Assembly (NCBI RefSeq): GCF_039830145.1
Contig: NZ_CP156082.1
Location: 2,312,001 to 2,376,000, forward strand
Source of the DNA: Croceibacterium sp. TMG7-5b_MA50
Lineage (GTDB): Bacteria > Pseudomonadota > Alphaproteobacteria > Sphingomonadales > Sphingomonadaceae
Direction of reading: 5' to 3'
DNA: 64,000 nucleotides
Part shown: positions 13,657 through 58,259 of the stretch, piece after piece
Numbering within the stretch: position 1 is the first letter of the stretch
Layout of the letters: each line of letters opens with the position of its first letter
The notes under the pieces: generated by a model
Seen by the model: the letters and a program-made list of their open reading frames with translations, nothing else
Told to the model about the DNA's origin: nothing
Databases searched by the model: none
Position numbers and translations under genes: made by a program

Positions 13657-14865
13657 TCACCAATTCCACAATTGCCCGTCGGCAAGGCGCGCGACCGGCA
13701 GGTAGGCGCGCTGATACGGGTACTTGGCCGCCAGCTCCTCGTCGATGTCGACGCCATGGCCCGGCTGCTCGCTGCAGAACAGGTATCCATCCTTGTAATG
13801 GTAATCGTGCGGGAAGACCGCGTCGGTCTCCTCCGTATGGCGCATATATTCCTGAATGCCGAAATTGGGCACCCAGGTGTCGAAATGCAGCGCGGTGCCT
13901 AGGGTGACCGGCGACAGGTCGGTCGCCCCGTGGCAGCCGGTGCGGATCTGGTACAGGCCGGCAAGGTCGGCGATGCGGCGCAGATGAGTCAGCCCGCCCG
14001 CGCCCACGATGGTCGCGCGAATGTAGTCGATCAGCTGGTTCTGGATCAGGTCCTTCGCATCCCAGATGGAATTGAAAATCTCCCCCACGGCGAGCGGCGT
14101 CACCGTGTGCTGGCGGATCAGGCGGAATGCCTCCTGGTTCTCCGCCGGGGTCGCATCCTCCAGCCAGAACAGCTGGTATGGCTCCAGCATCTTCCCCAGG
14201 TTCGCCGCTTCCTGCGGGGTGTAGCGGTGATGCGCATCATGCAGCAGGTGGTAATCGAAGCCGAACGTGTCGCGCAGCCTGGCGAACAATTGCGGCACGT
14301 GATTCAGCGCCTTGCGGGTATCCCAGCCGGTCACGGTCGGCAGGTCGGCATCGGCGGGCTCGTAATGCAGCGTCCCGCCGCTGACGCCGTAGGCCTTCTC
14401 CACGCCCGGCACGCCGCTCTGTGCCCGGATCGCCTTGTAGCCCATGTCGATATAGGTGGCGACCGCCGCCACCGTGCGGTCGATGTCGGCGCCGTTGGCG
14501 TGGCCATAGACCATGATGCCGTCGCGGCTGCGCCCGCCCAGCAACTGATAGAGCGGCATCCCGGCCATCTTCGCCTTGATGTCCCACAACGCCACGTCCA
14601 CCGCCGCGATGGCGCGCATCGTCACCGGACCGCGCCGCCAGTATGCCCCACGATAGAGGTACTGCCAGATGTCCTCGACCCGGCGTGGGTCCATCCCGAT
14701 CAGGCAGGGGATCACGTGGTCTTCCAGGTAGGAGACCACCGACAGTTCCCGCCCGTTCAGCGTACCGTCGCCGATGCCGTGAACGCCCTGGTCCGTCTCG
14801 ATCTTCAGGGTGACGAAGTTGCGCCCCGGACAGGTAACGATGACGCGGGCGGAGGTGATCTTCAC
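13657..14865 (-). CDS. manD: D-mannonate dehydratase, enolase superfamily
   Basis: A 402-residue ManD enzyme that converts D-mannonate to 2-keto-3-deoxygluconate. The metal ligands D210, E236 and E262 and the catalytic R147, Y159, H212 and H312 fall at the positions known for Novosphingobium ManD, which supports both function and taxonomy. It replaces the unrelated UxuA of enterobacteria, and its substrate is the product of UxuB encoded 10 kb away. It is monocistronic; an operator-like palindrome lies 78 bp upstream. The conserved residues argue for the high-activity ManD class rather than a promiscuous RspA homologue. Confidence 0.93.
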
Positions 14866-14942
14866 AGGTGCTCTCCCCTTCCGGCATTCAGCCGATGGGG
14901 AGCATGTACGTTGGCCTGCCCGGCGCTGGCAAGATCGTTCTT

Positions 14943-14954
14943 GTTAGCGCTAAC
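14943..14954. promoter_or_regulatory. Palindromic operator upstream of manD
   Basis: GTTAGCGCTAAC is a perfect 12-bp palindrome with a central GC, resembling LacI-family operators. It sits 78 bp upstream of manD, directly against the sufA stop codon. It differs from the uxaA/uxaC operator, so a different regulator may bind it. Confidence 0.55.
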
Positions 14955-15314
14955 TCAGACCATGAAGCTCTCGCCGCAGCCACAGGCGCCCTTGGCGTTG
15001 GGGTTGGTGAACACAAAGCCGGCGGTGAAGTCGTCCTCCACCCAGTCCATCGTGCTGCCGACCAGATACAGGACGCTGGCCCCATCGATGTAGAAGGTGC
15101 CGCCGGGCGTGGCGATCTTCTCGTCGAACGCCTGTTCCGCGGTCACGTAATCGACCGAATAGGCGAGGCCCGAGCAGCCACGCCGGGGCGTGGACAGCTT
15201 CACGCCGATGGCGTTGGCCGGCGCCTTGCCCATCAGTTCGGCGATGCGCGCCTCCGCCGAGGACGTCAGGGTCACCGCGGCAGGCCGCGCGCGAGCAGGT
15301 GCAGTCGTCGCCAT
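14955..15314 (-). CDS. sufA: A-type Fe-S carrier protein (HesB/IscA family)
   Basis: A 119-residue A-type carrier that receives a nascent Fe-S cluster from the SufBCD scaffold and passes it to apoproteins. The three conserved cysteines are C47 (RRGCSG) and C111/C113 (GACGCGESF) near the C-terminus. The ATG at 15314 overlaps the sufT stop by one base; the open frame upstream is not used. It is the last gene of the suf operon, and no terminator is obvious before manD's promoter region. Confidence 0.92.
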   Translation of the reverse strand: MATTAPARARPAAVTLTSSAEARIAELMGKAPANAIGVKLSTPRRGCSGLAYSVDYVTAEQAFDEKIATPGGTFYIDGASVLYLVGSTMDWVEDDFTAGFVFTNPNAKGACGCGESFMV

Positions 15315-15766
15315 CACAGCATCCCCAGTTCGAGGCGCGCCTCGTCGCTCATCTTGGACGGGTCCCATGGCGGATCCCAGGTGACGTTGACCTGCGCATC
15401 GCGGACGCCCGGCAGGTTGCCGACGCGCAGCTCGATCTCGCCCGGCATGGTCTCGGCCACCGGGCAATGCGGGGTGGTCAGCGTCATGGTGATCGCGACG
15501 TCCGCATCAGGGGTGATGTCGACGCCGTAGATCAGACCCAGATCGTAGATGTTCACCGGAATCTCGGGGTCGAAGATGTCCTTTAGTGCCTCGATCACCG
15601 CATCGTACATCTCGCCGCCCGGCTCGCCCGCCGATTGTTCCACCGGCTTCTGCGCCAGGAAGCCGGCGAGATAATCCTTCTCGCGCGGAGCCTCGCTTTC
15701 CGGCAGCGGCGCATCCGACACGCGGGCGCGGGGGGGCTTCGCCAGTTGCTGTTCGTCCGGGGTCAT
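15314..15766 (-). CDS. sufT: SUF-associated DUF59/MIP18 protein
   Basis: A 150-residue protein whose C-terminal 100 residues are a DUF59 (MIP18/SufT) domain, with DPEIPVNIYDLGLIYGV near 67-82 and the conserved Cys C101 in TTPHCPVAETM. Such proteins assist Fe-S cluster maturation or transfer. The first ~50 residues are a charged, probably disordered extension. Its start lies 4 bp inside the end of sufS and its stop touches sufA, so it is an integral part of the operon. Confidence 0.88.
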   Translation of the reverse strand: MTPDEQQLAKPPRARVSDAPLPESEAPREKDYLAGFLAQKPVEQSAGEPGGEMYDAVIEALKDIFDPEIPVNIYDLGLIYGVDITPDADVAITMTLTTPHCPVAETMPGEIELRVGNLPGVRDAQVNVTWDPPWDPSKMSDEARLELGML

Positions 15767-44983: not shown

Positions 44984-45670
44984 TTACAATGTAAACAGGC
45001 GCTCCTCCGTCACGCTGGAACTCGCCCGCTCCAGACCCGCGCCACCGCCGAACTGGAAGCCGATCTGCGTGGCAAAGGCGCGGCACATGGCCAGGCGGGC
45101 GGCGCGGTCCTCCGCGGTTAGGACATGGACGCGAGCGGCTTGCACGGCGGGCTGATGGATGGCGCGGGTGAGATAGGGCCAGTCCTCCCACAGCTCCACC
45201 ACCTGCCCGGTCCGTGCCAGTGCGTCGCGCACCAGCCAGTGATCGACATGGTCGCCGATCGCCATCGGCCCCAACAGCAGGTCGGGTTGCAACCGGGTGA
45301 CCTGCTCCGCCAACTGCCGGGTCAGCGGCGCCAAGGCATTGTCGTCTGGGTGCCGGGTGCCAAACAGCTCCAACGCGTTGGCGTAGCCGCGATGCGGCGC
45401 TTCCAGCAACGGCAGGTGGATCGCCTCCGCACCGATCACCGCGCACGCGGCCAGGTCCTCTGCCCGGCGCAGCGCCATGTAGTCCACATCGGACGGCAGG
45501 CCCTTGTCGAGCTGGCAGGCGAGCGCGAAGCCGGCGGGCTCAGCGACATTGCCGGTGAAGCAGGTGACGATCGTCACCTGGTCGCCGCCCCGCGCCCGCG
45601 CCGCCAGGAAGCCGCCGATCGAGAAGGCCGCATCGTCGAGGTGCGGGGAAACGGCGACGACGTGGCTCAC
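44984..45670 (-). CDS. PIG-L/LmbE family deacetylase
   Basis: A 228-residue zinc-dependent deacetylase of the family that includes MshB and BshB, which remove N-acetyl groups from glucosaminyl intermediates in mycothiol and bacillithiol synthesis. The metal motif is SPHLDDAAFSIGG (H10, D13, with D12 as likely base) and the second metal His lies in GDHVDHWL (H141-x-x-H144). It is the last gene of the nine-gene operon, overlapping the glycosyltransferase by 4 bp. Deacetylation of an N-acetylhexosaminyl-inositol is inferred from its partners. Confidence 0.88.
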   Translation of the reverse strand: MSHVVAVSPHLDDAAFSIGGFLAARARGGDQVTIVTCFTGNVAEPAGFALACQLDKGLPSDVDYMALRRAEDLAACAVIGAEAIHLPLLEAPHRGYANALELFGTRHPDDNALAPLTRQLAEQVTRLQPDLLLGPMAIGDHVDHWLVRDALARTGQVVELWEDWPYLTRAIHQPAVQAARVHVLTAEDRAARLAMCRAFATQIGFQFGGGAGLERASSSVTEERLFTL

Positions 45671-46875
45671 AGCAGATGCGGCTCAGCGCGGAAGCGGCAG
45701 GGAGCGAGCGGGATGTAGGGATCGATGCCGGTGGCCGGGCGGGTGCCTTGCAGTGCGGCGTAGATGCCGGCGATCTGTGCGCCGACCGCATGCCAGCTGT
45801 AGACCCGGCGGCATTCCGCCAGGGCGGCGTCCGCCAGCCGGTGCCGCAAGGGCGCATCGCTCACCAGCCGGGTAATGGCCGAGGCGAGCGCCGGCACGTC
45901 GCCCGGCTCCACCAGCAGGCCGTTCTCGCCGTCACGGATGCAGTCCACGACGCCCACGGCACGGCAGGACAGCACCGCATGGCGGCTCGCCATCGCCTCC
46001 AGGATCGTGTTGCTGAACCCTTCGGCATAGGTGGGCGACAGGAACACGTCGTGCTGGCGGTACGATGCTGGCACCGCGTCGTAATCGGCGTAACCGGTGA
46101 AGGTGACACGATCCTGCAGGCCCAGTTCCGCCGCCAGCGCCCGTGCCGGCTCCAGGTCCGGGCCGATGCCCGACACGGTGCAACGCCAGTCCCCCGCCAC
46201 CTGCGGCAGCGCATCGAGCATGTCGAGCACGCCTTTACGCCGGTCGACCCGCCCGTGATAGAACAGCCGCACCGGCCCGTCGGCTACCGTCTCGCCCGGA
46301 GTGAAGCGATCGGTGTCGACGGCGCCCGGCACAATGGTGAACCGCTCCATCGGGGTTTCCAGTCGTTCATGCACCTCGGCCGCGAAGCTGGTGCCGCCGA
46401 TCAGCAGCGCGCCCGCATGGTCGAGCACCCGTTCCATGGCGATGCGGTGGGTGGAGCAGCACGATCCGACCCAGTGACCGTCCCCGCCCTGGATCGACAC
46501 CACGCAGGGCACGCCCAGCACCTGCGCCGCCAGCAGCGTCGCCCAGCCGGTGGGATAGCCATATTGCGCGTGCAGGATGTCGAACCGCGTGCGCGCATGT
46601 TCGCGCACGATCGTTTCCACCATGCAGGCGATGTCACGCTCGAAATCGCCGCCGGCCTGTTCGCCCAGCGCCTCCAGCCCGATGACCCGCACACCTGGCA
46701 CGTCGGGCGGCGGACCGCCGCCGTACACCTTGGCCCGCTCAGGATCGCCGTAATACTGGCTGATCATGGTGACCTCGTGCCCGGCGGCGACCAGCTGGCG
46801 CAGCAGGTTAATGGCGTAGATCGACATGCCGGAGATCGCGGGAAAGAACCGGCGGGAGACGAAGCAGACCCTCAC
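45667..46875 (-). CDS. GT4-family glycosyltransferase
   Basis: A 402-residue GT-B retaining glycosyltransferase. The N-terminal acceptor domain begins VRVCFVSRRFFPAISGMSIYAINLLRQL; the C-terminal donor domain has FYHGRVDRRKG and the E-x7-E motif EGFSNTILE near residues 284-292. The fold and family are those of MshA, which joins GlcNAc to inositol phosphate; with an inositol-phosphate synthase in the operon a similar acceptor is plausible but unproven. The start is a GTG at 46875 overlapping the previous stop (GTGA). Confidence 0.9.
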   Translation of the reverse strand: MRVCFVSRRFFPAISGMSIYAINLLRQLVAAGHEVTMISQYYGDPERAKVYGGGPPPDVPGVRVIGLEALGEQAGGDFERDIACMVETIVREHARTRFDILHAQYGYPTGWATLLAAQVLGVPCVVSIQGGDGHWVGSCCSTHRIAMERVLDHAGALLIGGTSFAAEVHERLETPMERFTIVPGAVDTDRFTPGETVADGPVRLFYHGRVDRRKGVLDMLDALPQVAGDWRCTVSGIGPDLEPARALAAELGLQDRVTFTGYADYDAVPASYRQHDVFLSPTYAEGFSNTILEAMASRHAVLSCRAVGVVDCIRDGENGLLVEPGDVPALASAITRLVSDAPLRHRLADAALAECRRVYSWHAVGAQIAGIYAALQGTRPATGIDPYIPLAPCRFRAEPHLL

Positions 46876-47705
46876 CGTGCAACCAGCCTGGTGAGATAGC
46901 CGATCGCTTCCGGGATGGCGGCGTGGGCACGCGGGCTTTCGCGCGACAGTTCGACGCAGACCAGCCGGGCGAAACCGATCTGCTCCAGCGCGGCCAGCAC
47001 GGCGGGCATGTCCATGTCCCCCTGCCCGAACGGCAGGTGCGTGTGGTCGCCGCGCCGCATATCCTCCACCGCGACCGTGCCGATACGGGGCGCATATTCG
47101 CGGATGGCATCCGCCGGGTCGATGTCCTCGGTCACCAGGCAATGCCCGGTGTCGAGCGCCAGGCGGAGGCGCGGGTGGCGTTCGGCCAGGGCGGCATAGT
47201 CGCCGACCGTCTCCACCAGCATGCCCGGCTCCGGCTCGAAACTCGCGTCCACGCCGCGCAGCTCCGCATGGTCGAGCACGCGGGCGAGACCATCGTCCAG
47301 CCAGCGGAACGCATCTTCACGCACCACGCCGGCCTGCGGCACCCCGGCCCAGAACGACACTGTCTCGCTGCCCAGCAGCGCCGCGATGTCGAGCGCCCGG
47401 CACAGGAACTCCACCCGTCTGGCCCGCCCATCCGCCGCCGGGTTCACCAGCGTCGGCTCATGCTTTAGGCGCGGGTCGAGCAGATAGCGCGCGCCGGTTT
47501 CGATCACGCTGCCGAGCCGCAGTTCCTCCAGCAGGCGACGTACCCGTTCCGTCTCCCGCTGCCAATCCGGGGCGAAAGGGTCCAGGTGATGATGGTCCAG
47601 CGTCAGCGCCACGCCGTCATAGCCGGCATCGGCGATCAGACGCAGCGCATCGTCCAGCCGGTGATTGGCCGCGCCATTGGTGTTGTAGGCGTAGCGCAGG
47701 GTCAT
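46872..47705 (-). CDS. Xylose isomerase-like TIM-barrel protein
   Basis: A 277-residue sugar phosphate isomerase/epimerase (AP endonuclease 2 fold). Metal-site candidates are the Glu in SFEPEPGMLVE, the Asp/His in ALDTGHCL, and the HTHLPFGQGDMD loop, followed by VCVELSRES. Relatives include IolE and IolI of inositol catabolism, and epimerases in natural-product pathways; an isomerase or dehydratase acting on an inosose or sugar would fit this operon. The ATG at 47705 overlaps the YcaO stop by 4 bp. Confidence 0.85.
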   Translation of the reverse strand: MTLRYAYNTNGAANHRLDDALRLIADAGYDGVALTLDHHHLDPFAPDWQRETERVRRLLEELRLGSVIETGARYLLDPRLKHEPTLVNPAADGRARRVEFLCRALDIAALLGSETVSFWAGVPQAGVVREDAFRWLDDGLARVLDHAELRGVDASFEPEPGMLVETVGDYAALAERHPRLRLALDTGHCLVTEDIDPADAIREYAPRIGTVAVEDMRRGDHTHLPFGQGDMDMPAVLAALEQIGFARLVCVELSRESPRAHAAIPEAIGYLTRLVAR

Positions 47706-49201
47706 GCCGCAACCTCCTCCCGCTGATCCCACGCGACATGGTGCGCTTCGGGTTCGCGGTAGAGGGGGTAGAGCGGGCCGACGAGCGCATCGGCCGCGGC
47801 GGTGTCGAACAGCGGGTGGCCCAGGCGCTCGGCATCCTGCAGGGTCAGGCGCACGGGTCGCAGCGTGTCCGTTGCCTCACCGAAGCGGATCAACGGAGAA
47901 TCCAACGCCAGCAGCTTCTCCGAGTTGCGGGCGCCGATCCGATAATAGCTCATCGTCTCGACCTCCATGCCGGGCACGATCACCTTGACCACGCTGACCG
48001 CCCGGTCAGGTGGCGACAGGTCGACATAGAGCATGTCGAACCCGGCCTGCTCCACCGCCGCGCGGGCGACCTGCGCGCGTGCATGGCCATCGGTCGCTGC
48101 TTGCGACGGCAGCTCGGTAAATTCGTAAGATGACCGTTCCGCCAGCACGCTGCCTGCCAGCCAGCCGCGCAGTTCGGCGGCGTCGCGTGCGGTCCAGTCG
48201 CGCATTGCCTGGAAGGCCCGGCTGTCGGTCGACTTCGCTGCACCGCCGGCCTGCGCCATGAAGCGTTCGACATAACCGGCGGGTGCGACCTTCCGCACCA
48301 GATCGGCGGGGCCGTGGGCGAAAGCCTTGCGCGCGCGGCTGGCGGCATATTCGGTCAGGCACTTGTCCAGTGCCGCCGCGCGGTCAGGATGGCATCCTTC
48401 GCCGCAGGCCGTCACCATGATCGGCGCGGCGGGCGGCGCCCGCTCGTCCACGCCCACGCAGTACAGGTTCGGGATGCCGAACTGGTCGGTGGCGAATTTG
48501 GGCATTGCCCGGATGCCCGCCGCGTGGAACCGGCCCAGGATCGCGCGGGTGGATGGGGGCAGTCCGCCATCCCAGTCCAGCGTGACACCGCGGTCGAGCG
48601 CGCGGAACAGCAGGCCGTTGCCGTCGCGCTGCAGGATCTCGCACAGGCCATGCCCGATCGCCCAGTCGAGATCCGGCCCCGCGCCCATGCCGTTGGAGAT
48701 GATGGTGGTGAACGGCTGGTAGCCGGGCGTCAGCTCCTTCGCCGAATAGGCGGCGAGGTCGATCGGCACCAGCACCTCCGCCCCGTCCGCCCACCGGCGC
48801 GCTGCCACCCATTCCAGCACCGTATCGCGCCCCACCGGCGATCCAGCGGGCAGGCACAGCGTCAGTGGGTCGGCCACGCCACGTTCGCCCAGCGTCCGCG
48901 CCATTTCGCTATAGCTGCCGCGCGTCCGTTTCCGCCCCTGCAACGTCAGCGTCGGCCAGACCATCTCCGCGATCTCGCCCAGCCCGCCCAGCACCGCCGC
49001 CTCATCCGTCGCGCCGTAGCCCACGCCGTAGGGCATGATGCCGGCCAGCGCCGGATCGTCCGGGAACAATGCGACCACCCATACCGGCAGGCCCAGCCGG
49101 TCGAGTGGGTGGATGGGGAAGGCGACGACATCACCCGCCGGGAAGGCGTCGAGATAGGCCTGCGCCGCCGGGCCGAGCCCCTTGGGAAGACCGGACCTCA
49201 T
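47702..49201 (-). CDS. YcaO-domain protein
   Basis: A 499-residue YcaO protein, a family that uses ATP to activate amide carbonyls for azoline, thioamide or amidine formation. The nucleotide/Mg motifs are recognisable: GYGATDEAAVLGGLGEIAEM (E76, E79) and SNGMGAGPDLDWAIGHGLCE with E188-I-L-Q191-R-D, where the usual second Glu is Gln. GCHPDRAAALDKCLTEYAASR is also conserved. There is no C-terminal PxPxP tail and no fused E1-like domain, and no TfuA gene lies beside it. No precursor peptide gene fits in the fully overlapped operon, so the substrate may be a small molecule or a peptide encoded elsewhere. Confidence 0.88.
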   Translation of the reverse strand: MRSGLPKGLGPAAQAYLDAFPAGDVVAFPIHPLDRLGLPVWVVALFPDDPALAGIMPYGVGYGATDEAAVLGGLGEIAEMVWPTLTLQGRKRTRGSYSEMARTLGERGVADPLTLCLPAGSPVGRDTVLEWVAARRWADGAEVLVPIDLAAYSAKELTPGYQPFTTIISNGMGAGPDLDWAIGHGLCEILQRDGNGLLFRALDRGVTLDWDGGLPPSTRAILGRFHAAGIRAMPKFATDQFGIPNLYCVGVDERAPPAAPIMVTACGEGCHPDRAAALDKCLTEYAASRARKAFAHGPADLVRKVAPAGYVERFMAQAGGAAKSTDSRAFQAMRDWTARDAAELRGWLAGSVLAERSSYEFTELPSQAATDGHARAQVARAAVEQAGFDMLYVDLSPPDRAVSVVKVIVPGMEVETMSYYRIGARNSEKLLALDSPLIRFGEATDTLRPVRLTLQDAERLGHPLFDTAAADALVGPLYPLYREPEAHHVAWDQREEVAA

Positions 49202-50013
49202 AGCGGCAGCCTCCGCACACCCGGCGCCCGTGCCAGCCCGTCATCCAAGGCCGCAAGCGCGACCTCGCTATCGACCTCTGGCGCATATTCGAACGGGGTC
49301 AGGACCGCATCGAAGGCGAGCGGGGCGATGGTGTCGCGGTAGCGGCGCAGTTCGGCGTGTGTCAGCGGAATGTCCTTGTGAAACGCCTTGTGGCTGGAGA
49401 TGGCATGGCTGCGGCCGCCCGCATCCTGGTCGATCTTGAACATGTCGCCGCAGAACAGCCGCCTGCCGGGCACATCGTGCAGGCAGGCCTGCCCTTCGTA
49501 ATGGCCGCCGACGTGATGCAGGGTGTAGCCGGGGGCGAGTTCCAGCGTGTCGTCGAACGGGGCGGTGACGCGAAATGCCTTGGTCATCCGCAGGTCGTCG
49601 CGCTGGATAGCGACCACCGGCGGGTCGAACACCCGCTGCAACTGGAACAACGCGCCATAGCCGTGGGCGTGGCTGGCCGCGAGGCAGGCGATCCCGCCCA
49701 GCCGCTCGATCTGCACCAGCATCGCGTCCGAGTAGTATGGCGCCGCCTCGAATGCGATATTGCCGCCGGGACGCACGATCAGCCAGCCCGTGCCGGCGAG
49801 ACCCAGCGCCGGGCTGGTGGTGAACGCCCACAGGCCAGGCGCGACCTCGCGGGCAGTCCCGGTGTGCGTGGCGGCGACCTCTGCCTCCGGCAGGAAGCGC
49901 CAGCCATCCTCCGGCAGGTCGTTGCGGACATCGGTGCAGACGGGGCAGTCGGGCGGGGCGAAATGTCGTTGCCAGAATCCGCAATTGGCGCAGGCGTACC
50001 AGTTCAGAGCCAT
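49198..50013 (-). CDS. Metallo-beta-lactamase-fold protein with N-terminal zinc ribbon
   Basis: A 271-residue protein. Residues 1-30 carry a four-cysteine knuckle (C8-x2-C11 and C23-x2-C26), like a zinc ribbon or rubredoxin. The rest is an MBL fold, but the first metal motif is H115-A-H117-G-Y-G rather than HxHxDH, so the second-metal ligands are lost; H171 (GGHYEG) and D190 (FCGDMF) remain. It may bind one metal, perhaps iron with a redox role, or act as a hydrolase or thiolesterase. It overlaps YcaO by 4 bp and the oxidoreductase gene by 10 bp. Confidence 0.82.
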   Translation of the reverse strand: MALNWYACANCGFWQRHFAPPDCPVCTDVRNDLPEDGWRFLPEAEVAATHTGTAREVAPGLWAFTTSPALGLAGTGWLIVRPGGNIAFEAAPYYSDAMLVQIERLGGIACLAASHAHGYGALFQLQRVFDPPVVAIQRDDLRMTKAFRVTAPFDDTLELAPGYTLHHVGGHYEGQACLHDVPGRRLFCGDMFKIDQDAGGRSHAISSHKAFHKDIPLTHAELRRYRDTIAPLAFDAVLTPFEYAPEVDSEVALAALDDGLARAPGVRRLPL

Positions 50014-50996
50014 CGGGCAGCCTCCCGGTAGGCGCGATCGAACAACCGCATCAGCTGAAGATCACGAGCCATGGAGAAATCGTGCGGCGCGCCCCCGGCA
50101 GCGGCCATGAAGGCGGCCGCCTGCGCGGCGAACGGGCTGGTCGCGGCATCGAACGCCAGCCGCGTTTCCAGGCCGCTGACACCGCACCGACGCAGCAGCG
50201 TGCCCCCGGCGGTCTGCCCCATCGTGTCGATGGCGACCAACAGGCCACGTTCGCCCAGCACCTCCAGCCGCCGGCGGGGCAGCACCTCCGCGCAATTATA
50301 CGCGACATGGCTCTGCACCAGCACCCCGTTACCGGTGCGGCCCATCAGCATGCCGCCATCGTCCACCGGATAGGCATGGACCCGCCGCTGGAGCGCGATG
50401 GACAGGTCCGCCAGCGGTTCGTTCACCAGGTACTGCGCCAGGTCCAACCCGTGCAGCGCCAGGTCGATCACCGCGCCGCCCCCGGCACGCGCGGGATCGG
50501 TGCGCCAGTTGTCGTGCTCCCCGCCATCCGGCGACCAGGCCGGATCGAGCCAGCATGCATAGACGATCCGCACCGCCAGCACCCGGCCGATCGCATCGCG
50601 GTCGATCGCCTCCGCCATCGCCACATGCGCCGGATGGTGCCGCTGGTCGAAGGCGGTGCCGTAGAGTCCGCCGGCGACAGCTTCGGCCATCGCCTCCGCA
50701 TCCGCCAGGCTGGCGGCGATCGGCTTTTCGCACAGCACCGGCATCCCCGCTGCGGCACAGGCCTCAACCGGGGCGAGATGCGCATCGTTGGGTGTCGCGA
50801 CATAGACCAGGTCGCACGCATCCGCCGCCAGCATCTCCTGCACGGTGGCGAACGCCGCCATGCCCGCCACCTCCGCCCGCGCGCGCGCTGCCGGCGATGG
50901 ATCGACCACGGCGGACACCCTACCGCCCGCAGCGGCGATCCCCGGCGCCATGTAATCGCGCGCGACCCAGCCAAAACCGACGATACCCCAGCGCAT
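50004..50996 (-). CDS. Gfo/Idh/MocA family oxidoreductase
   Basis: A 330-residue cytosolic NAD(P)-dependent oxidoreductase without a signal peptide. The Rossmann motif is GIVGFGWVARDY (near residue 5), the catalytic Lys is in CEKPIAAS, and the second domain has VIDLALHGLDLAQYL and RVHAYPVDDGG. Many relatives oxidise inositol, inositol derivatives or nucleotide sugars. In this operon a ketone intermediate from inositol or its glycoside is a plausible product. The ATG at 50996 shares one base with the methyltransferase stop. Confidence 0.88.
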   Translation of the reverse strand: MRWGIVGFGWVARDYMAPGIAAAGGRVSAVVDPSPAARARAEVAGMAAFATVQEMLAADACDLVYVATPNDAHLAPVEACAAAGMPVLCEKPIAASLADAEAMAEAVAGGLYGTAFDQRHHPAHVAMAEAIDRDAIGRVLAVRIVYACWLDPAWSPDGGEHDNWRTDPARAGGGAVIDLALHGLDLAQYLVNEPLADLSIALQRRVHAYPVDDGGMLMGRTGNGVLVQSHVAYNCAEVLPRRRLEVLGERGLLVAIDTMGQTAGGTLLRRCGVSGLETRLAFDAATSPFAAQAAAFMAAAGGAPHDFSMARDLQLMRLFDRAYREAARWL

Positions 50997-52108
50997 CACC
51001 ACCGCTCCGGCAGATCGACCATCCGGCGCAGGCGCACCGGATCGGGCGGGAACGGCAATTCGGCATCGGGGCGCGCCCAGAAGCAGCCGGCGCCATATTC
51101 CCGCTGGTAGCGGGCGGACGGCCAATGCGTGTGCCCCTGCCCGTTCAGCAGGGGGTTCGGCCGCAGTGCAGCCGCCACCGGCGGCACCGCGATGCCGCCC
51201 ACCACCGCGCGCGGACCGGTGCTACCCTCGACCAGGGACCACGCCTCCACCGAAGGATCAGCCTGCCAGTTACCGACAGCGGGCACAGAGCCCGACAGCA
51301 GCGCATGCAGCAGGTCGCGCTCGTCATGCACCAGCGCATCTGGGAACAACGCCGCCCATTCCGCCGCCGGCCGCGCCGGGCCCAGCGCGCCCGGCGTATG
51401 GCTGGCATTGTGCAGGTGACTGATCGCCAGCACGCCGCCGGGTGCGACCTGCCGGCGCAGGGCAGCGGCGACTGCGGACTGATCGGGCAGGAAGTAGAAC
51501 GCGTCGTGACACATCACCAAGTCGGCCTGCGCGCCTTCCACCGGCCATGGCGCGGCGGCGTCGAACACCACGTAGCGGGCCGCTGGCGCGACCCAGTGCC
51601 GGGCGAGCCAGCACTTGGCAAAGACCACGTCCGCCCCGGTGCAGGCGACCCCGCACCGACCGAGGTCGCGCAGGTAATGACCGATGCCGCAGGCAAGCTC
51701 GAACGCGGTCGCGGGCGCACCCCAGTGCGCCTGCAGCAGAGCGAGGCCGGCAAGGTATGTCGGATCGCTCCAGCGATAGGCAAAGTAATCGGCCACCGGG
51801 CCAAGCTGCAGCAGCGCCATCGCCGCACGCAGGCTCAGTGCATCACGCTCCCGCACCAGCCGGGCGAGATCGTCCGGCTCGGTCGCCGGTCCGGTCCACC
51901 AATCGTCCTGGTCGGCCAGCAGCAGCAGCAATGCGGCCTGGTGCCGCCCGGCATCGAGATGATCTAGGGTGGCGGCGACCAACGCGTCGCGCCCGGTCCG
52001 CAGATAGGGGATGCCGTCCACCACCGGCCATCGCTCCCCCGCTGCCGCCAGCGAATGCGGCGTGTCGGGCGTAAGCGGCGCGCCGGAGGTGGGCGAGCGC
52101 AGGTTCAT
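50996..52108 (-). CDS. SAM-dependent methyltransferase with Trm112-like N-terminus
   Basis: A 370-residue protein. The first ~40 residues (LRSPTSGAPLTPDTPHSL, then RWPVVDGIPYLR) resemble a Trm112-type module but lack its cysteines. A helical segment follows, then a class I methyltransferase domain with motif I FELACGIGHYLRDLG near residue 138, an acidic VFDAAAP region, and the post-motif VMCHDAFYFLP. The target atom is unknown; O- or N-methylation of the operon product is inferred. It overlaps both neighbours (1 bp and 4 bp). Confidence 0.82.
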   Translation of the reverse strand: MNLRSPTSGAPLTPDTPHSLAAAGERWPVVDGIPYLRTGRDALVAATLDHLDAGRHQAALLLLLADQDDWWTGPATEPDDLARLVRERDALSLRAAMALLQLGPVADYFAYRWSDPTYLAGLALLQAHWGAPATAFELACGIGHYLRDLGRCGVACTGADVVFAKCWLARHWVAPAARYVVFDAAAPWPVEGAQADLVMCHDAFYFLPDQSAVAAALRRQVAPGGVLAISHLHNASHTPGALGPARPAAEWAALFPDALVHDERDLLHALLSGSVPAVGNWQADPSVEAWSLVEGSTGPRAVVGGIAVPPVAAALRPNPLLNGQGHTHWPSARYQREYGAGCFWARPDAELPFPPDPVRLRRMVDLPERW

Positions 52109-52992
52109 AGCAGGCCCGCATCCATCAGGATACGATCGTGGAACGGCTTCACCGGGCCATCGTGCACCAGACCGTATTCACCCAGCACAGTGTTCATCGT
52201 CAGCCGCGCGGCACGGGTGTGCTGTTCGATCTCCAGCACGCGGTCGAGCACGTCGGCCACGTGGAAGGCGCGCGCCTCCCCCGTGGCGTCACCGCCAATC
52301 GGCGCCAGCGCCGCGGAGACCTGCTGCGCCAACCCGTCAGGTAGTTGCGCCAGTGCGGCATTGCGGGCGTTGGCAATGGCCGTGTCCAGCGCATCGCCCA
52401 GCAGTATCTCCCCCGAATAGCCGCTGTCGGGCATGGCGGCATTGTGCAGGTGATGCGCCAGGCCGGACAGGAACACCGGCACGGGATCGGCATCGTGCCA
52501 CCCGCTCGCCAGCACGCCATAGACGGCGACCATCAGGCAGTGTTCGGCGTGGTTTTCCGCCGGCTGCAACATGATGCGCGGGCGGCCCGGGCACGTGACG
52601 CCCGCGCGGGGCTGGCGCGCCAATGCCGCCACGAAGGCGGGCACCTCGCCGGCGTAGGGGCGTCCCTCCGGCAAGGCGGCGCGCAGCCGGTCCCGCACCG
52701 CCGAATGAACCTCGCCAGCCACCTCTTCGAAGGCGCGGTCCAGCACCGGCAGCGGATCGAGCCCGAGCGCCTGCAACGTCCCGAAATCGAGATCGCCCAG
52801 CCGCGCCGCCACCAGCACGGCGGCCGTCACCTGTTCCATCACGCGGCCCGCCGGCTCGCCGCGCAGCAGGGCGGCCCAGGCATCCGTGAACAGCCGTTGC
52901 GCGATCGAGCCAGGCGCATTGGCCGAATGGATGCGCTTCAGATCGCCCAACTCACGGAAGAACGGCAGCGCGGCCGGAGTCAGCCCGCTCAC
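52105..52992 (-). CDS. HD-like metal-binding protein
   Basis: A 295-residue, mostly helical protein. A cluster of potential metal ligands, ENHAEHCLM (H148, H151), GLAHHLHNAAMPDSG (H180, H181, H183) and HVADVLDRV (H244, D247), has the spacing of an HD domain with the HD dyad replaced by HH. HD proteins are phosphohydrolases or, in the MIOX/PhnZ branch, di-iron oxygenases; either would suit an inositol pathway (removing the phosphate or oxidising the ring). The first ~130 residues are unassigned. The GTG start at 52992 overlaps the ino1 stop. Confidence 0.7.
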   Translation of the reverse strand: MSGLTPAALPFFRELGDLKRIHSANAPGSIAQRLFTDAWAALLRGEPAGRVMEQVTAAVLVAARLGDLDFGTLQALGLDPLPVLDRAFEEVAGEVHSAVRDRLRAALPEGRPYAGEVPAFVAALARQPRAGVTCPGRPRIMLQPAENHAEHCLMVAVYGVLASGWHDADPVPVFLSGLAHHLHNAAMPDSGYSGEILLGDALDTAIANARNAALAQLPDGLAQQVSAALAPIGGDATGEARAFHVADVLDRVLEIEQHTRAARLTMNTVLGEYGLVHDGPVKPFHDRILMDAGLL

Positions 52993-54176
52993 GCGATCTC
53001 CGGCGCACGATCCAGCCAGCGGTCCAGCATCGCCTGCTGTTCGGGGAAGCCGTGGATCGGCTCCCGCCCGTTCGCCGTCTGCGGCAGCTTGAAGAACAGG
53101 CCGAGCTGTTCCTGCACGCCGCCCTCCCCGCGCTGCTGCGCCAGATCCAGGCAGCGGGCGATCTCGATCGCCAGCGGGGCGGCGAGGATGCTGTCCTTGC
53201 ACAGGAAGTTCAGCTTCAGCTGCATCTTCTGACCCATGAAGCCGGTCAGATCGATATTGTCCCAGGCTTCCTTGTCGTCGCCGCGCGGGCGGTAATAATG
53301 GATCATCACGATGTGATCCTCCACCGGGTAGCCCAGGATCTGGTTCAGCACGCTGCCCTTGGTGCCCAGCTTCGATTGCAGGGACTTGGGATCGTCCAGC
53401 GCCAGGCCGTCCGAATTGCCCAGGATGTTGGTGGAGAACCAGCCATCCACATGCAGCGCCCGATCGCGCAGGGCGGGGGCGATGACCGTCTTGATGAAGG
53501 TCTGGCCGGTCTTGCCGTCCTTGCCCGCCACCGGCACGTTCCGCTCCGCCGCGAAGGCCGCAAGGGGGGCGATGTCGGCCGCGACGGAGGGCGTGAAATT
53601 GGCGTACGGAGTGCCGGCGTCGATCGCGGCATAGGCATAGAGCATCGCCGGGCTGATCGCGGCATCGTCGCTGTCCAGCCCACGCTCGAACCCTTCCAGC
53701 GATTGCAGCGCCGGATCGGCGGCGTCGGCCACCCGTTCGGTCGAGGCGAGGTTCACCACCACCACCCGGTCCAGCCCCTTGTCCCGGCGGAACCGCTGGA
53801 GATCGGCCTGGATCTGCTCCACCGCCGCGCGATGGCCGCCGGTCAGCTTGTTGCCGCCGTCGATATTGGCGCAGTATCCGGTGCTGCCCGCCGCCTTCCA
53901 CGGGCGCATGGTGTTGAGGGCGGAAGCGCCGTTCGACAGCTCCTTCTCCCCGATCACGCCATGGCGGATCGCGCAGGCGCCCAGCGTGTCGTCCGCCAGG
54001 TCCCAGCCACCGAACTCCAGGTCGCGGTACGCGGCCATGCCGGGCACATCGCGGTCGGCCAGCGGCAGGCCATCCAGGCTGTTGCTGCCCGCCTTGATCA
54101 TCTCGATACCGGCGATGGCCGTGGTGGCGACAGCACCGCCCACGCCCACGATCGCCACACCCAGCCGTTCAGCCAT
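52989..54176 (-). CDS. ino1: Inositol-1-phosphate synthase
   Basis: A 395-residue myo-inositol-1-phosphate synthase, converting glucose 6-phosphate to inositol phosphate with NAD. It has the N-terminal GVAIVGVGGAVATT nucleotide site, VVVNLAST, GKDGKTGQTFIKT, the signature NILGNSDGLAL, and the Lys-rich catalytic segment GFMGQKMQLKLNFLCKDSILAAPL. The ATG at 54176 is preferred over an upstream ATG for the standard N-terminus. It heads the operon, which suggests inositol phosphate is the starting material. Dedicated inositol synthesis is uncommon in Proteobacteria outside inositol-lipid producers. Confidence 0.93.
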   Translation of the reverse strand: MAERLGVAIVGVGGAVATTAIAGIEMIKAGSNSLDGLPLADRDVPGMAAYRDLEFGGWDLADDTLGACAIRHGVIGEKELSNGASALNTMRPWKAAGSTGYCANIDGGNKLTGGHRAAVEQIQADLQRFRRDKGLDRVVVVNLASTERVADAADPALQSLEGFERGLDSDDAAISPAMLYAYAAIDAGTPYANFTPSVAADIAPLAAFAAERNVPVAGKDGKTGQTFIKTVIAPALRDRALHVDGWFSTNILGNSDGLALDDPKSLQSKLGTKGSVLNQILGYPVEDHIVMIHYYRPRGDDKEAWDNIDLTGFMGQKMQLKLNFLCKDSILAAPLAIEIARCLDLAQQRGEGGVQEQLGLFFKLPQTANGREPIHGFPEQQAMLDRWLDRAPEIA

Positions 54177-54292: not shown

Positions 54293-55078
54293 TTACATAT
54301 GTGCCTGCGGATCGCGGCTACGCTGATCCATGTCACTTTGTGGCGAGCCGACGGGCGGCAGCCAGTCGGTCGCGACCTCGTGATGGCGGTCGTTGAACTG
54401 GACCAGAGCGGCCAGCCGATCGACATCGGTGATCCGGATCACGCGGCCGTCGCGCTCCACGAGACCAGTCTCCTCCAGCGCCTTCAGCGACCGGTTCACA
54501 TGCGTCTTGGTGAGGCCGACCGCATCGCCCAGGTCCTGCTGCGTCAACGGCAGTTCGAACCGCGAACCGTCCAGCCCATCGACCACGCGCAGGCGGGACC
54601 GAATGTCGAGCAGCAGGGTTGCGATGCGGGTGAAGCCGTCAGTCCGCCCAACGGAGGTGAGCCGGTCGGCCATCGCCACCTGTTCCGATGCCGCCACGCC
54701 GTACAGCAGCGCGGCAACGCGTGGGTGATCGCGGAACAGCCGTCCCAAATTCTCGCGCGGCACTTCGTACAGCGTCGCATCGCTGACTGCGCGCAGGGTG
54801 GCGGCGCTGCGATGCCAGGCGATGGAAAAGGTGGTGGTGATGTCGCCCACGAAATAGAATCGGAGGATCTGCCGCCCGCCATCGGGCAGGCGGACGGACC
54901 CGTGCAGCCAGCCGCTGGCGACGACATGCAACTGGTCTGTCGCCTCCCCTTCGTGCACGATCACCTCGCCCGCGCGGTACAGCCGCTCGCGCCTTTCCAG
55001 CCAGCGCAGCGCATCCCGCTCCGCAAAGGTGAGCGCCAGATGTTGCGACAGGCGAGTCTCTAGCGCGCTGGGGGTCAT
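54293..55078 (-). CDS. Crp/Fnr family transcription regulator
   Basis: A 261-residue regulator with an N-terminal cyclic-nucleotide-binding-type beta barrel (EVIVHEGEATDQLHVVASGWL, FYFVGDITTT) and a C-terminal winged helix (LTQQDLGDAVGLTKTHVNRSLKALEETGLV). No cysteines are available for an Fe-S cluster, so it is not an oxygen-sensing Fnr. It lies 116 bp upstream of ino1 on the same strand and may regulate the inositol operon; it also sits 10 bp after the RND pump gene, so pump operon read-through is possible. Confidence 0.88.
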   Translation of the reverse strand: MTPSALETRLSQHLALTFAERDALRWLERRERLYRAGEVIVHEGEATDQLHVVASGWLHGSVRLPDGGRQILRFYFVGDITTTFSIAWHRSAATLRAVSDATLYEVPRENLGRLFRDHPRVAALLYGVAASEQVAMADRLTSVGRTDGFTRIATLLLDIRSRLRVVDGLDGSRFELPLTQQDLGDAVGLTKTHVNRSLKALEETGLVERDGRVIRITDVDRLAALVQFNDRHHEVATDWLPPVGSPQSDMDQRSRDPQAHM

Positions 55079-55088
55079 GGCTGCGGCT

Positions 55089-58000
55089 TCAACCCTTCTG
55101 CCCGGCGGCGCGTTCCCCGCCGCGCTTCGTCGCCACCACGGTGTACAGCGCCGGCACGACGAACAGCGTGAACAGCGTGCCGATGGCCATGCCGACGCCC
55201 AGCACGAAGCTGATGGCGAAACGGCTGTTCGCGCCCGGACCGCTTGCCCCCACCAGCAGCGGGACGAGGCCGATCAGCGTGGCGATGGTGGTCATCAGGA
55301 TGGAGCGGAGGCGCAGCGCGGCCGCCTTCTCCATCGCCTGCCGCCGGTCGGCACCCTCCTCTTCCTGGATCTGATTGGCGAATTCCACCAGCAGGATGCC
55401 GTGGCGGATGATCGATCCGGTCAGCGCGAGCAGGCCGATCTGGGTGTAGATATTGGCGCTGACCACGCCCAGCGCGAAGAACACCAGCGCGCCCGCGAGG
55501 CTCATCGGCACGCTGACCAGCATGACGGCGGGGTCGCGGAAGCTTTCGTACTGCGCCGCCAGCGTCAGGAAGACTAGGATGACCGCCAGGCCGAAGGCCA
55601 GCAGGATGTTCGATCCTTCCTGCGTGAACTGGCGCGATTGGCCGGCATAATCGACCGTGTAGCCCTGCGGCAGGGCGGCGGCCTGCTCCTCCAGGAAGGT
55701 GATGGCCTGCCCCAGCGACACGCCGGGTGCCGGCACGCCGGACAGGATCGCGGCATTGAGCTGGTTGAACCGGCTGAGCGCGTTGGGCCGGATCTCCGTA
55801 TCGACGGTGGCGAAGGCGGATAGCGGCACCAACTGCCCGCGCCCGGCAGTGGCCTGCGCGCTGGTTGTCCCGCCGGTCGCGCCCGCCTGCCCGCCCGGTC
55901 CCGCCGGGGCAGCGGTGGCATTGCCGCCGGCGGCTGCGGCCATGGCCGGGTTGGCCCGGACATAGTAGTCGTCCAGCTGTTCCGGCGTCAGGCGGAAGCT
56001 GCGATCCACCTGCGGGATGACGCGGTAGGATCGTTCGTCCAGGCTGAAGAAGTTGACGTACCCTTCAGCCAGCAGGGTCGACAGATCCTGCCCCAGATTG
56101 GCGATGTCGACGCCCAGCGCGCTCGCCTTCTCCCGATCGATCGCGACATTGCCCTGCGCCCGGTCGAAGGTCAGGTCGCTGTCGATGAACTGAAACAGCC
56201 CGCTGGCGCGTGCGGCCGCCAGCACCTGTTCCGATTGTTCGAAGATTGCGCGCGGATCCTCGATCGAGCCCAGCACGAACTGGATCGGCGGCCCGCCGCC
56301 GCCACCGGGCAGCGTCGGCGGCTCGATCACCGTTGTCTCCAGACCCGGCACGCTGGCGACCGCTTCCTGCAATTGCGGCTGCAATTCCTGCTGCGTCTGC
56401 TCGCGGTCGGCCCAGTCCTTCATCACCGCGCCGGCGAAAGCGCTGTCGGGCGATTCCCCGCCATTGGTGACGAAGGCCAGCTGCACCGAATCCTGCTGCC
56501 GCATGATCTGCCCCAGTTCCGCCGTCCAGCGTTCCAGCTGGTCGAGCGAGCCGTTGGGGTCGCCGCTCGCCTGCACGATCAGGAAGCCGTCATCCTCCGG
56601 CGGGGACAGTTCCGCCTGCGCCGCATTGTACAGGAACCAGCAGCTGACCAGCACGGCGACGCCGAAGCCGATCACCACCCAGCGCCCGTCGAGCGCGCGG
56701 GACAGCACGCGGGCATAGCCGTCGGACGTCTTGCGGAAGCCTTTGTCGACCCAACGGGTGATGCCCTTCTTCTCGCTGCTGTTGGCCTTCAGCACCTGCG
56801 CGCACATCATCGGCGACAGGGTCAGGCCGACAATGCCCGACATCAGCGTGGCGCCAGCGACGGTGTAGGCGAACTCCGTGAACAGGCTGCCGGTCAGCCC
56901 GCCGATCAGCCCCACCGGCAGGAACACCGCCAGCACCACCACGTTCATCGCGATGATGGAGGAGGCGAGCTCCTTCACCGTGCGCTTGGCCGCCTCCTCC
57001 GGATCGGCGCCATCCTCGATATGGCGCATCGCATTCTCCACGATGACCACGCCGTCATCCACCACCGTGCCGATCGCCAGGATCAGCGCCAGCAGCGTCA
57101 GCAGGTTGATGGAATAGCCGAGCATGCTCATCAGGAAGAAGGCGCCGATGATTGACAGCGGCATGGCGATGACCGGCACCAGCGCCGACCGCCACGATCC
57201 CAGGAACAGCAGGATCACCACCGTGACGATCAGCAGCGCCTGCCACAGGGAGGAGACCACCTCGTCGATATTGGCGTTCACGGCCTCCGTCGCGTCATAG
57301 ACGATGGTGGCGGTCATGCCGGCGGGCAATTGCTCCTGCACGCGGGGGAACAGCTCGTTCACCTGGCCGATCGTGTCCAGCAGGTTGGCGTCGGGCGCGA
57401 CCTCCACCTCCATGAACACGGCGGGCTTGCCGTTGATGAAGGTGGAACTGGCGTAATCCTCCGCCCCCAGTTCGACCCGGCCGATATCCTCCAGCCGGAT
57501 CAGCGCATCGCCGGTCTGCCGCACGATCAGGCGGCGGAAGCCGTCCACGCTGGTGATGTCGGTGCCCGCGGTCAGCGGCAGGCTGACGGTGGAACCCTTG
57601 GTCTCCCCCACCGCCGACAGGTAATTGTTGCTGGCGAGCGCGGCCTGCACATCGGACGGCGCGACATCCAGCGCCGCCATCCGCCGCGGATCCAGCCAGA
57701 CGCGCAGCGCCAGGCTGGTGGAACCCTGCACCCGCGCCTGCTGCACGCCGTCAACGCCCTCGATCTGCGGGCGGATGGCGCGGTTAATGTAGTCGGTCAT
57801 CTCCGCCGGGCTCAGCGCCTGGCTCTGGAACGCGATATACATCGCGTCCGTCTCCGCCTCGCTGGTGACGTAGACGATGGAGTTCTCCGCCTCAGGCGGA
57901 AGCTGGTTCGACACCTGGTTGATCTTGGTCAGGATCTGCGCGACCGCGTCGTTCGGGTCGTAGTTCAGCTCCAGGAACGCCTCGATCCGGCTCTGCCCCT

Positions 58001-58259
58001 GCGTGCTGGTGGATTGGAGGTAGTCGATCCCCTCCGCCTCAGAAATCGCCTGTTCCAGCGGAGTGGTGATGAAGCCGCGCACCAGTTCGGCATCGGCGCC
58101 GATATAGGGCGTGTTGATGATGATCGTCGCCTGCGTCACCTCCGGATATTCGCGGGTGGTGAGGGAGGTGATCGCCTGCAGCCCCAGCAGCAGGATGACC
58201 AGGCTGACGACGCTCGCCAGCACCGGCCGCTCCACGAACCGGGTGAGAAACCGCATCAT
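55089..58259 (-). CDS. RND multidrug efflux transporter (HAE1 family)
   Basis: A 1056-residue inner-membrane proton-driven pump with twelve transmembrane helices and two large periplasmic loops. Signature segments include the N-terminal FLTRFVERPVLASVVSLVIL and the TM4 proton-relay Asp pair in GTVVDDGVVIVENAMRH, plus GSIIRHGILLVEFANQ and a C-terminal IGLVPLL. A Gly/Ala/Thr-rich insertion near residues 770-810 enlarges the second periplasmic loop. It overlaps the fusion-protein gene by 4 bp. Substrates are unknown. Confidence 0.93.
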   Translation of the reverse strand: MMRFLTRFVERPVLASVVSLVILLLGLQAITSLTTREYPEVTQATIIINTPYIGADAELVRGFITTPLEQAISEAEGIDYLQSTSTQGQSRIEAFLELNYDPNDAVAQILTKINQVSNQLPPEAENSIVYVTSEAETDAMYIAFQSQALSPAEMTDYINRAIRPQIEGVDGVQQARVQGSTSLALRVWLDPRRMAALDVAPSDVQAALASNNYLSAVGETKGSTVSLPLTAGTDITSVDGFRRLIVRQTGDALIRLEDIGRVELGAEDYASSTFINGKPAVFMEVEVAPDANLLDTIGQVNELFPRVQEQLPAGMTATIVYDATEAVNANIDEVVSSLWQALLIVTVVILLFLGSWRSALVPVIAMPLSIIGAFFLMSMLGYSINLLTLLALILAIGTVVDDGVVIVENAMRHIEDGADPEEAAKRTVKELASSIIAMNVVVLAVFLPVGLIGGLTGSLFTEFAYTVAGATLMSGIVGLTLSPMMCAQVLKANSSEKKGITRWVDKGFRKTSDGYARVLSRALDGRWVVIGFGVAVLVSCWFLYNAAQAELSPPEDDGFLIVQASGDPNGSLDQLERWTAELGQIMRQQDSVQLAFVTNGGESPDSAFAGAVMKDWADREQTQQELQPQLQEAVASVPGLETTVIEPPTLPGGGGGPPIQFVLGSIEDPRAIFEQSEQVLAAARASGLFQFIDSDLTFDRAQGNVAIDREKASALGVDIANLGQDLSTLLAEGYVNFFSLDERSYRVIPQVDRSFRLTPEQLDDYYVRANPAMAAAAGGNATAAPAGPGGQAGATGGTTSAQATAGRGQLVPLSAFATVDTEIRPNALSRFNQLNAAILSGVPAPGVSLGQAITFLEEQAAALPQGYTVDYAGQSRQFTQEGSNILLAFGLAVILVFLTLAAQYESFRDPAVMLVSVPMSLAGALVFFALGVVSANIYTQIGLLALTGSIIRHGILLVEFANQIQEEEGADRRQAMEKAAALRLRSILMTTIATLIGLVPLLVGASGPGANSRFAISFVLGVGMAIGTLFTLFVVPALYTVVATKRGGERAAGQKG

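Follow-up and report, generated by a model that had tools for sequence, protein, structure and literature searches.

A conserved nine-gene operon combining a YcaO enzyme with inositol and amino-sugar enzymes: strong candidate for a small-molecule pathway not yet described

YcaO enzymes are ATP-dependent and are known chiefly as modifiers of peptides and proteins; to our knowledge, their roles beyond peptide pathways have scarcely been explored. The mycothiol pathway (Ino1, MshA, MshB, MshC, and MshD) combines an inositol-phosphate synthase, a GT4 glycosyltransferase, and a PIG-L deacetylase, bacillithiol is made by BshA, BshB, and BshC, and the product proposed for the ebo operon is an isoprenoid-cyclitol compound (PMC5133447). 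Here we analyse an operon that shares enzymes with each of these systems. It lies in a 64,000-nucleotide stretch of the Croceibacterium sp. TMG7-5b_MA50 chromosomal contig NZ_CP156082.1 (positions 2,312,001 to 2,376,000; referred to as the window), where an earlier note, made from the sequence alone, had read nine leftward genes as a candidate new pathway. The nine genes are one conserved, co-inherited functional unit that is horizontally mobile. We found no paper describing this gene set in the open-access literature, in keeping with the earlier note, and the operon stands as a strong candidate for a small-molecule pathway that has yet to be described. On balance, it is probably a dedicated and mobile biosynthetic unit for a small amino-sugar-cyclitol metabolite.

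Families were assigned to the nine proteins by Pfam and NCBIfam profile searches after refinement of the gene starts. The genes are listed below from ino1 onwards (protein lengths in amino acids, aa), followed by the regulator upstream.

52989..54176, minus strand: ino1, myo-inositol-1-phosphate synthase (395 aa; PF07994 E 4e-55, PF01658 E 1.5e-32)
52105..52992, minus strand: HD-like protein (295 aa; no Pfam match; helical N-terminal part and C-terminal part with a probable HD-domain fold)
50996..52108, minus strand: S-adenosylmethionine-dependent methyltransferase (370 aa; PF08241 E 3e-10)
50004..50999, minus strand: Gfo/Idh/MocA oxidoreductase (331 aa; PF01408/PF22725)
49198..50013, minus strand: zinc-ribbon and degenerate metallo-beta-lactamase-fold (MBL) protein (271 aa; PF00753 E 0.004)
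47702..49201, minus strand: YcaO, putative ATP-dependent amide-activating enzyme (499 aa; PF02624 E 4e-53)
46872..47705, minus strand: xylose-isomerase-like TIM barrel (277 aa; PF01261, AP_endonuc_2, E 6e-39)
45667..46875, minus strand: GT4 glycosyltransferase (402 aa; PF13692/PF00534, E 1e-32)
44984..45670, minus strand: PIG-L deacetylase (228 aa; PF02585 E 9e-15)
54293..55078, minus strand: Crp/Fnr-type regulator, probably cognate (cNMP_binding and HTH_Crp_2 domains), upstream of ino1

That the nine genes form a single operon is borne out by their minus-strand open reading frames (ORFs) between 54176 and 44984, by overlaps at all eight junctions, and by conserved gene order. The overlaps, which the earlier note had put at 1–10 bp, measure 4, 4, 4, 10, 4, 4, 4, and 4 bp from ino1 to PIG-L, so that overlap at every junction stands and the sizes narrow to 4 bp at seven junctions and 10 bp at one. 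The operon begins at the ino1 start (54176), and the transcription unit may reach slightly further, to include the Crp-family regulator that lies on the same strand, 116 bp ahead of ino1. Pfam upheld seven of the nine family assignments (ino1, methyltransferase, Gfo/Idh, YcaO, TIM barrel, GT4, and PIG-L); the MBL call is marginal, with a match under the cut-off, and the HD-like protein was called on other grounds than Pfam. All nine genes are under purifying selection, with ratios of nonsynonymous to synonymous substitution (dN/dS) of 0.09–0.27 against two Sphingomonas relatives. The guanine-cytosine content of the operon (69.7%) is close to that of the window (69.2%), so base composition does not point to very recent import.

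Bacterial genomes scanned with YcaO as the query yielded 39 contigs, 29 of Sphingomonas type and 10 of Methylobacterium. The complete nine-gene set is present in identical order in 27 of the 29 Sphingomonas contigs, and the remaining two (L012 and L020) end within the locus. All 10 Methylobacterium contigs keep this order and lack only the MBL gene, which leaves them with eight of the nine. All nine genes are found on plasmid p546-2 of Roseomonas haemaphysalidis and in each of two more alphaproteobacterial genomes (L054 and L055), while plasmid unnamed6 of Hymenobacter volaticus, an air isolate from the Bacteroidota, carries eight and lacks the methyltransferase gene, which is present at every other cluster locus examined. 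Two Methylobacterium replicons listed as plasmids also carry the operon. Conservation of gene order across Sphingomonas, Methylobacterium, Roseomonas, and Hymenobacter, genera that span two phyla, places the arrangement far beyond chance.

Carriage of the operon is patchy: it is found in 4 of the 99 relatives, in 3 genomes from a class sample of 387, and in 6 from a phylum sample of 397. Within those 99 relatives, the ino1, YcaO, and TIM-barrel genes are confined to one and the same set of four genomes, and of 72,556 plasmids only the four that carry the operon contain the HD protein (E<1e-5) or the GT4 (E<1e-40). The genes therefore do co-occur elsewhere, a point on which the earlier note had staked its proposal. 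Pairwise protein distances are also correlated among the nine proteins (r 0.62–0.96). Conserved order, plasmid carriage, co-occurrence, and correlated distances together identify a single functional and horizontally mobile unit, and this co-inheritance supports the proposal of a dedicated pathway. By record titles, carriers include isolates from leaves, air, and similar surfaces (the Leaf20, Leaf208, and Leaf230 strains and one air isolate). Reading frames are split in the Hymenobacter Gfo and GT4 genes (L044:10093-11120 and 14341-15572) and in the HD gene of L054 (L054:4442-5316), through either decay or sequencing error.

The earlier note had likened Ino1, the GT4, and PIG-L to the first enzymes of mycothiol synthesis, a resemblance that holds at the level of superfamilies and fails at the level of equivalogs. 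Ino1 has both NAD_binding_5 and Inos-1-P_synth domains, a near full-length match to myo-inositol-1-phosphate synthase (MIPS), and a conserved GKDxKxGQT region. Its best solved structure is 7nwr (Inositol-3-phosphate synthase; E 3e-77, almost full length), and its assignment as a genuine MIPS-type enzyme is well supported by these sequence features. It scores 39 bits with the mycothiol-INO1 model, where the cut-off is 638. The GT4 has an EX7E motif (EGFSNTILE) and, in alignment, a conserved CRFRxxPHLL C-terminus. It reaches 84 bits against a cut-off of 462 for MshA (TIGR03449) and 82 against 274 for BshA (TIGR03999), aligns from end to end with BshA and chiefly in the C-terminal domain with MshA, and scores slightly higher with other GT4 families, one of polysaccharide type, EpsE being among its best NCBIfam matches. 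From the MshA and BshA scores and this alignment pattern, neither donor nor acceptor of the GT4 can be called. In PIG-L, the PHLDD and HVDH metal motifs are intact and H10, D12, D13, H141, and H144 are invariant. Its three NCBIfam matches are all to thiol deacetylases and all far below cut-off: MshB (TIGR03445) at 18 bits against 224, and BshB (TIGR04000/TIGR04001) at 19–20 bits against 182–195. As the earlier note had claimed, MshC is not recognisable; the best match to TIGR03447 in the genome scores 165 bits where the cut-off is 485, and similar sub-cut-off matches in control genomes are as expected from cysteinyl-tRNA synthetase. No acetyltransferase-like gene of the MshD type (TIGR03448) is present among the nine operon genes, to which that search was confined. 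The mycothiol pathway itself is ruled out by the failed Ino1, MshA, and MshB cut-offs together with the absence of MshC, and the operon further differs from it in adding YcaO, Gfo/Idh, TIM-barrel, methyltransferase, HD, and MBL proteins. Bacillithiol synthesis offers a GT4 that aligns along its whole length and weak PIG-L matches; it differs in the failed cut-offs, in the lack of a BshC-like gene in the operon, and in the implied source of the acceptor, Ino1 rather than malate.

The TIM barrel links the operon to another cyclitol system. Residues E157, D185, H221, and E252 are invariant and occupy the positions expected of the E-D-H-E set in metal-dependent isomerases, and the protein is likely to be a cyclitol or sugar isomerase or epimerase. 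Its nearest plasmid relatives outside the operon are 48–51% identical and adjoin ino1 in actinobacterial ebo clusters with the gene order ino1-UbiA-TIM-eboA-TatD-eboE-eboF (Streptomyces plasmids L062, L063, L064, and L066); tblastn shows this order in Nonomuraea (L065) too. In these clusters, Ino1 possibly replaces the EboD sugar-phosphate cyclase. Inositol is absent from two papers on ebo function (PMC5133447, PMC6282210). The operon differs from the ebo variant in having no EboA, TatD (EboB), UbiA (EboC), EboE, or EboF. In blastp searches against the Streptomyces ebo proteins, only the TIM barrel and Ino1 match and the other seven operon proteins are unrelated; EboA was dismissed on this basis as an identity for the HD-like protein. 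Since Ino1 and the TIM barrel alone are common to the two systems, the comparison suggests that the TIM barrel acts on an inositol-derived intermediate. A ScyD/ScyE-family gene is annotated just upstream of the ebo cluster in L062 and L063.

The closest solved structure to the YcaO protein is MJ1094 (6pe3; profile E 3e-27), which we take to be an archaeal YcaO of the McrA-thioamidation type. E76, E79, and E188 are invariant. The ERD motif, whose glutamate belongs to the Mg/ATP site, is replaced by QRD; Q191 is invariant in 13 of 13 cluster sequences, whereas five YcaO proteins from outside the cluster and the solved enzymes have ERD. A C-terminal extension ends in a conserved YPLYREPE. Because dN/dS for this gene is 0.13 against the Sphingomonas relatives, the protein is likely to be functional and under selection. 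Three of five outside relatives examined (Paracoccus, Kitasatospora, and Mycetohabitans) are annotated beside TfuA-like genes, and the TfuA-associated YcaO type has been linked to thioamides (PMC5589413). The operon thus resembles YcaO-TfuA thioamidation, as in archaeal McrA and the thioviridamide family, in its nearest structure and in these outside relatives; it differs in having neither TfuA nor a peptide precursor, and in its QRD motif, extended C-terminus, and setting among sugar enzymes. It likewise differs from the azoline-forming YcaO pathways of thiazole/oxazole-modified microcins, for it has no E1-like/ocin-ThiF partner among its nine genes and no intergenic space for a precursor peptide. 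In L055, the YcaO (L055:8314-9816) is only 48–50% identical to that of the window, compared with 72–80% for Ino1, MBL, TIM, and GT4 at that locus, possibly through gene replacement or shifted specificity.

The remaining enzymes are less clearly placed. The AlphaFold model of the HD-like protein (predicted local distance difference test score, pLDDT, 87) has a C-terminal half resembling YfbR/HDDC2-type phosphohydrolases (2cqz, 1xx7, and 4dmb) at a Foldseek probability of 1.00, with every E-value above 0.04 and none reaching 0.001; there is also a weak profile alignment to 2cqz. Its motif is HH (H180-H181) instead of HD in 15 of 15 sequences, and H151, D189, D247, and D250 are invariant. The MBL protein has an invariant CxxC...CxxC zinc ribbon (C8, C11, C23, and C26) and a weak profile match to PqsE. 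In place of the HxHxDH dinuclear metal motif, 13 of 13 sequences have SHxH followed by G/V-(Y/F)-G, and H171 and D190 are invariant. Its AlphaFold model (pLDDT 34, from a shallow, near-identical alignment) was not used. This protein is probably a helper, because it is dispensable in Methylobacterium and its distant relatives are widespread in other gene contexts. The closest models to the Gfo/Idh protein are IolG and levoglucosan dehydrogenase (TIGR04380 IolG, 83 bits against a cut-off of 355), and C90-E-K-P and D179..H183 are invariant.

PIG-L, the GT4, Gfo/Idh, and the TIM barrel all retain their motif residues. The best reading of the product is an amino-sugar-cyclitol pseudodisaccharide modified by YcaO amide chemistry, oxidation or isomerisation, and methylation. 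Ino1 would convert glucose-6-phosphate to myo-inositol phosphate, a step strongly indicated by its family. The GT4 would transfer an N-acetylamino sugar to the cyclitol or its phosphate, giving an amino-sugar-inositol phosphate. The HD-like protein may then remove the phosphate, in the role of the mycothiol phosphatase, an enzyme yet to be identified, after which PIG-L would deacetylate. Gfo/Idh and the IolE/IolI-like TIM barrel may oxidise and isomerise the ring or the sugar. YcaO would use ATP to activate an amide on the scaffold, yielding a thioamide, amidine, or azoline, and the methyltransferase would cap the product, with the MBL/zinc-ribbon protein as an optional helper. Within this scheme, only the unit itself and the assignment of Ino1 are well supported; the other roles are read from protein families, and the sequence of steps is a proposal. 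Both the amide or thioamide chemistry and the inositol acceptor of the GT4, already suggested in the earlier note, we infer in this way. More specifically, and only tentatively, YcaO might convert an amide such as the N-acetyl group on a soluble amino-sugar-inositol scaffold to a thioamide, amidine, or oxazoline, acting with its QRD site and no partner.

The genes around the operon vary. The Crp-type regulator lies immediately 5′ of ino1 in 16 Sphingomonas contigs as well, whose flanks otherwise differ. Two GT2 genes with a PS_pyruv_trans gene between them form a block beside PIG-L in 12 of 29 Sphingomonas contigs (for example, L005:14282-18264); the block has an extra GT4 in 11 and is inverted in L008, and it may extend or decorate the product. 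In the window and most loci, the block is absent and the operon intact. An MdoH-like GT2 follows the operon on the Roseomonas plasmid. On the same plasmid, two spore-photoproduct-lyase-family genes adjoin the operon (L045:17786-19907), a possible UV-related context. EmrA/EmrB-like exporter genes lie upstream of the operon in most Methylobacterium loci. A resistance-nodulation-division (RND) efflux pump (55089-58259), 10 bp upstream of the Crp regulator, is confined to the window and was rejected as a member of the unit, being absent beside other loci. A defence system was also rejected, PADLOC support being limited to one generic methyltransferase match. No extra gene conserved at all loci was found among ORFs of at least 90 aa, and no dedicated sugar importer is conserved alongside the operon in the loci examined.

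Several points weigh against a small amino-sugar-cyclitol product. Substrate and product are assigned from protein families; the GT4 is equally distant from BshA, MshA, and enzymes of polysaccharide synthesis, and no residue evidence bears out its use of inositol phosphate. YcaO, its motif altered to QRD and a TfuA or E1 partner lacking, may not perform standard amide activation, and loss of the D of the HD motif makes phosphatase activity of the HD-like protein doubtful. The polysaccharide-type genes beside the operon in some species also mean that the product may be linked to a glycan. In that reading, which we consider rather unlikely, the GT4 and PIG-L would take part in assembling a surface polysaccharide or glycolipid and the remaining genes would decorate it, as the GT2/pyruvyl-transferase/GT2 block, the MdoH-like GT2 of Roseomonas, and the EpsE match of the GT4 might suggest. 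Yet the window and most loci have an intact operon and no such block, its core lacks a flippase, a polymerase, and any lipid-linked initiating enzyme, and a committed Ino1 and YcaO are not expected in polysaccharide pathways.

A low-molecular-weight thiol or thioamide cofactor akin to mycothiol or bacillithiol is a further minority possibility, with a GlcN-inositol core that receives sulfur through YcaO rather than through the cysteine of MshC. Membership of the superfamilies that open mycothiol synthesis, the exclusively thiol-deacetylase matches of PIG-L, far below cut-off as they are, and the thioamide-linked type of several YcaO relatives (PMC5589413) all point this way; the wide margins by which Ino1, the GT4, and PIG-L miss the relevant cut-offs, the genome without MshC, and the operon without a sulfur-relay gene do not, and the patchy distribution suggests an accessory metabolite over a core redox buffer. 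Pairs of Gfo/Idh and TIM-barrel enzymes are known in inositol and glycoside catabolism, and the IolG/IolE-like scores recall them, but a catabolic cassette, in which dehydrogenase, isomerase, and hydrolases would degrade glycosylated inositols, is very unlikely: Ino1 makes inositol phosphate and the GT4 consumes activated sugar, both unfit for catabolism, and a conserved importer is lacking. Peptides are the substrates of most characterised YcaO enzymes (PMC5589413), so that the operon could in principle make a ribosomally synthesised and post-translationally modified peptide (RiPP) decorated by its sugar enzymes. This we regard as highly improbable, as a precursor gene cannot fit inside genes that overlap end to end, the E1/ocin-ThiF or TfuA partner is missing from the nine, and the loci share no additional gene within the size range scanned. 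Judged by the defining features that we compared, the operon is not a mycothiol, bacillithiol, ebo, or RiPP locus, and an amino-sugar-cyclitol metabolite is the reading that we prefer.

By joining YcaO to enzymes of inositol and amino-sugar metabolism, this conserved and transferable operon opens a definite way, open to testing, towards a new natural product. The host genera Sphingomonas, Methylobacterium, and Hymenobacter are common on leaves and in air, and several carrier strains are cultivable, so deletion of the operon combined with metabolomics is directly feasible. The UVA-absorbing compound of Methylobacterium (Yoshida et al. 2017, as cited in PMC12573535) is a lead only, with nothing to connect it to the operon. 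The link between the TIM barrel and ino1 could also inform the unsolved product of the ebo clusters. If the more tentative reading is correct, in which YcaO converts an amide on the soluble scaffold, the operon would bring YcaO chemistry to a carbohydrate, for the benefit of bacteria living on sun-exposed surfaces, and its product would form a new class of metabolite.

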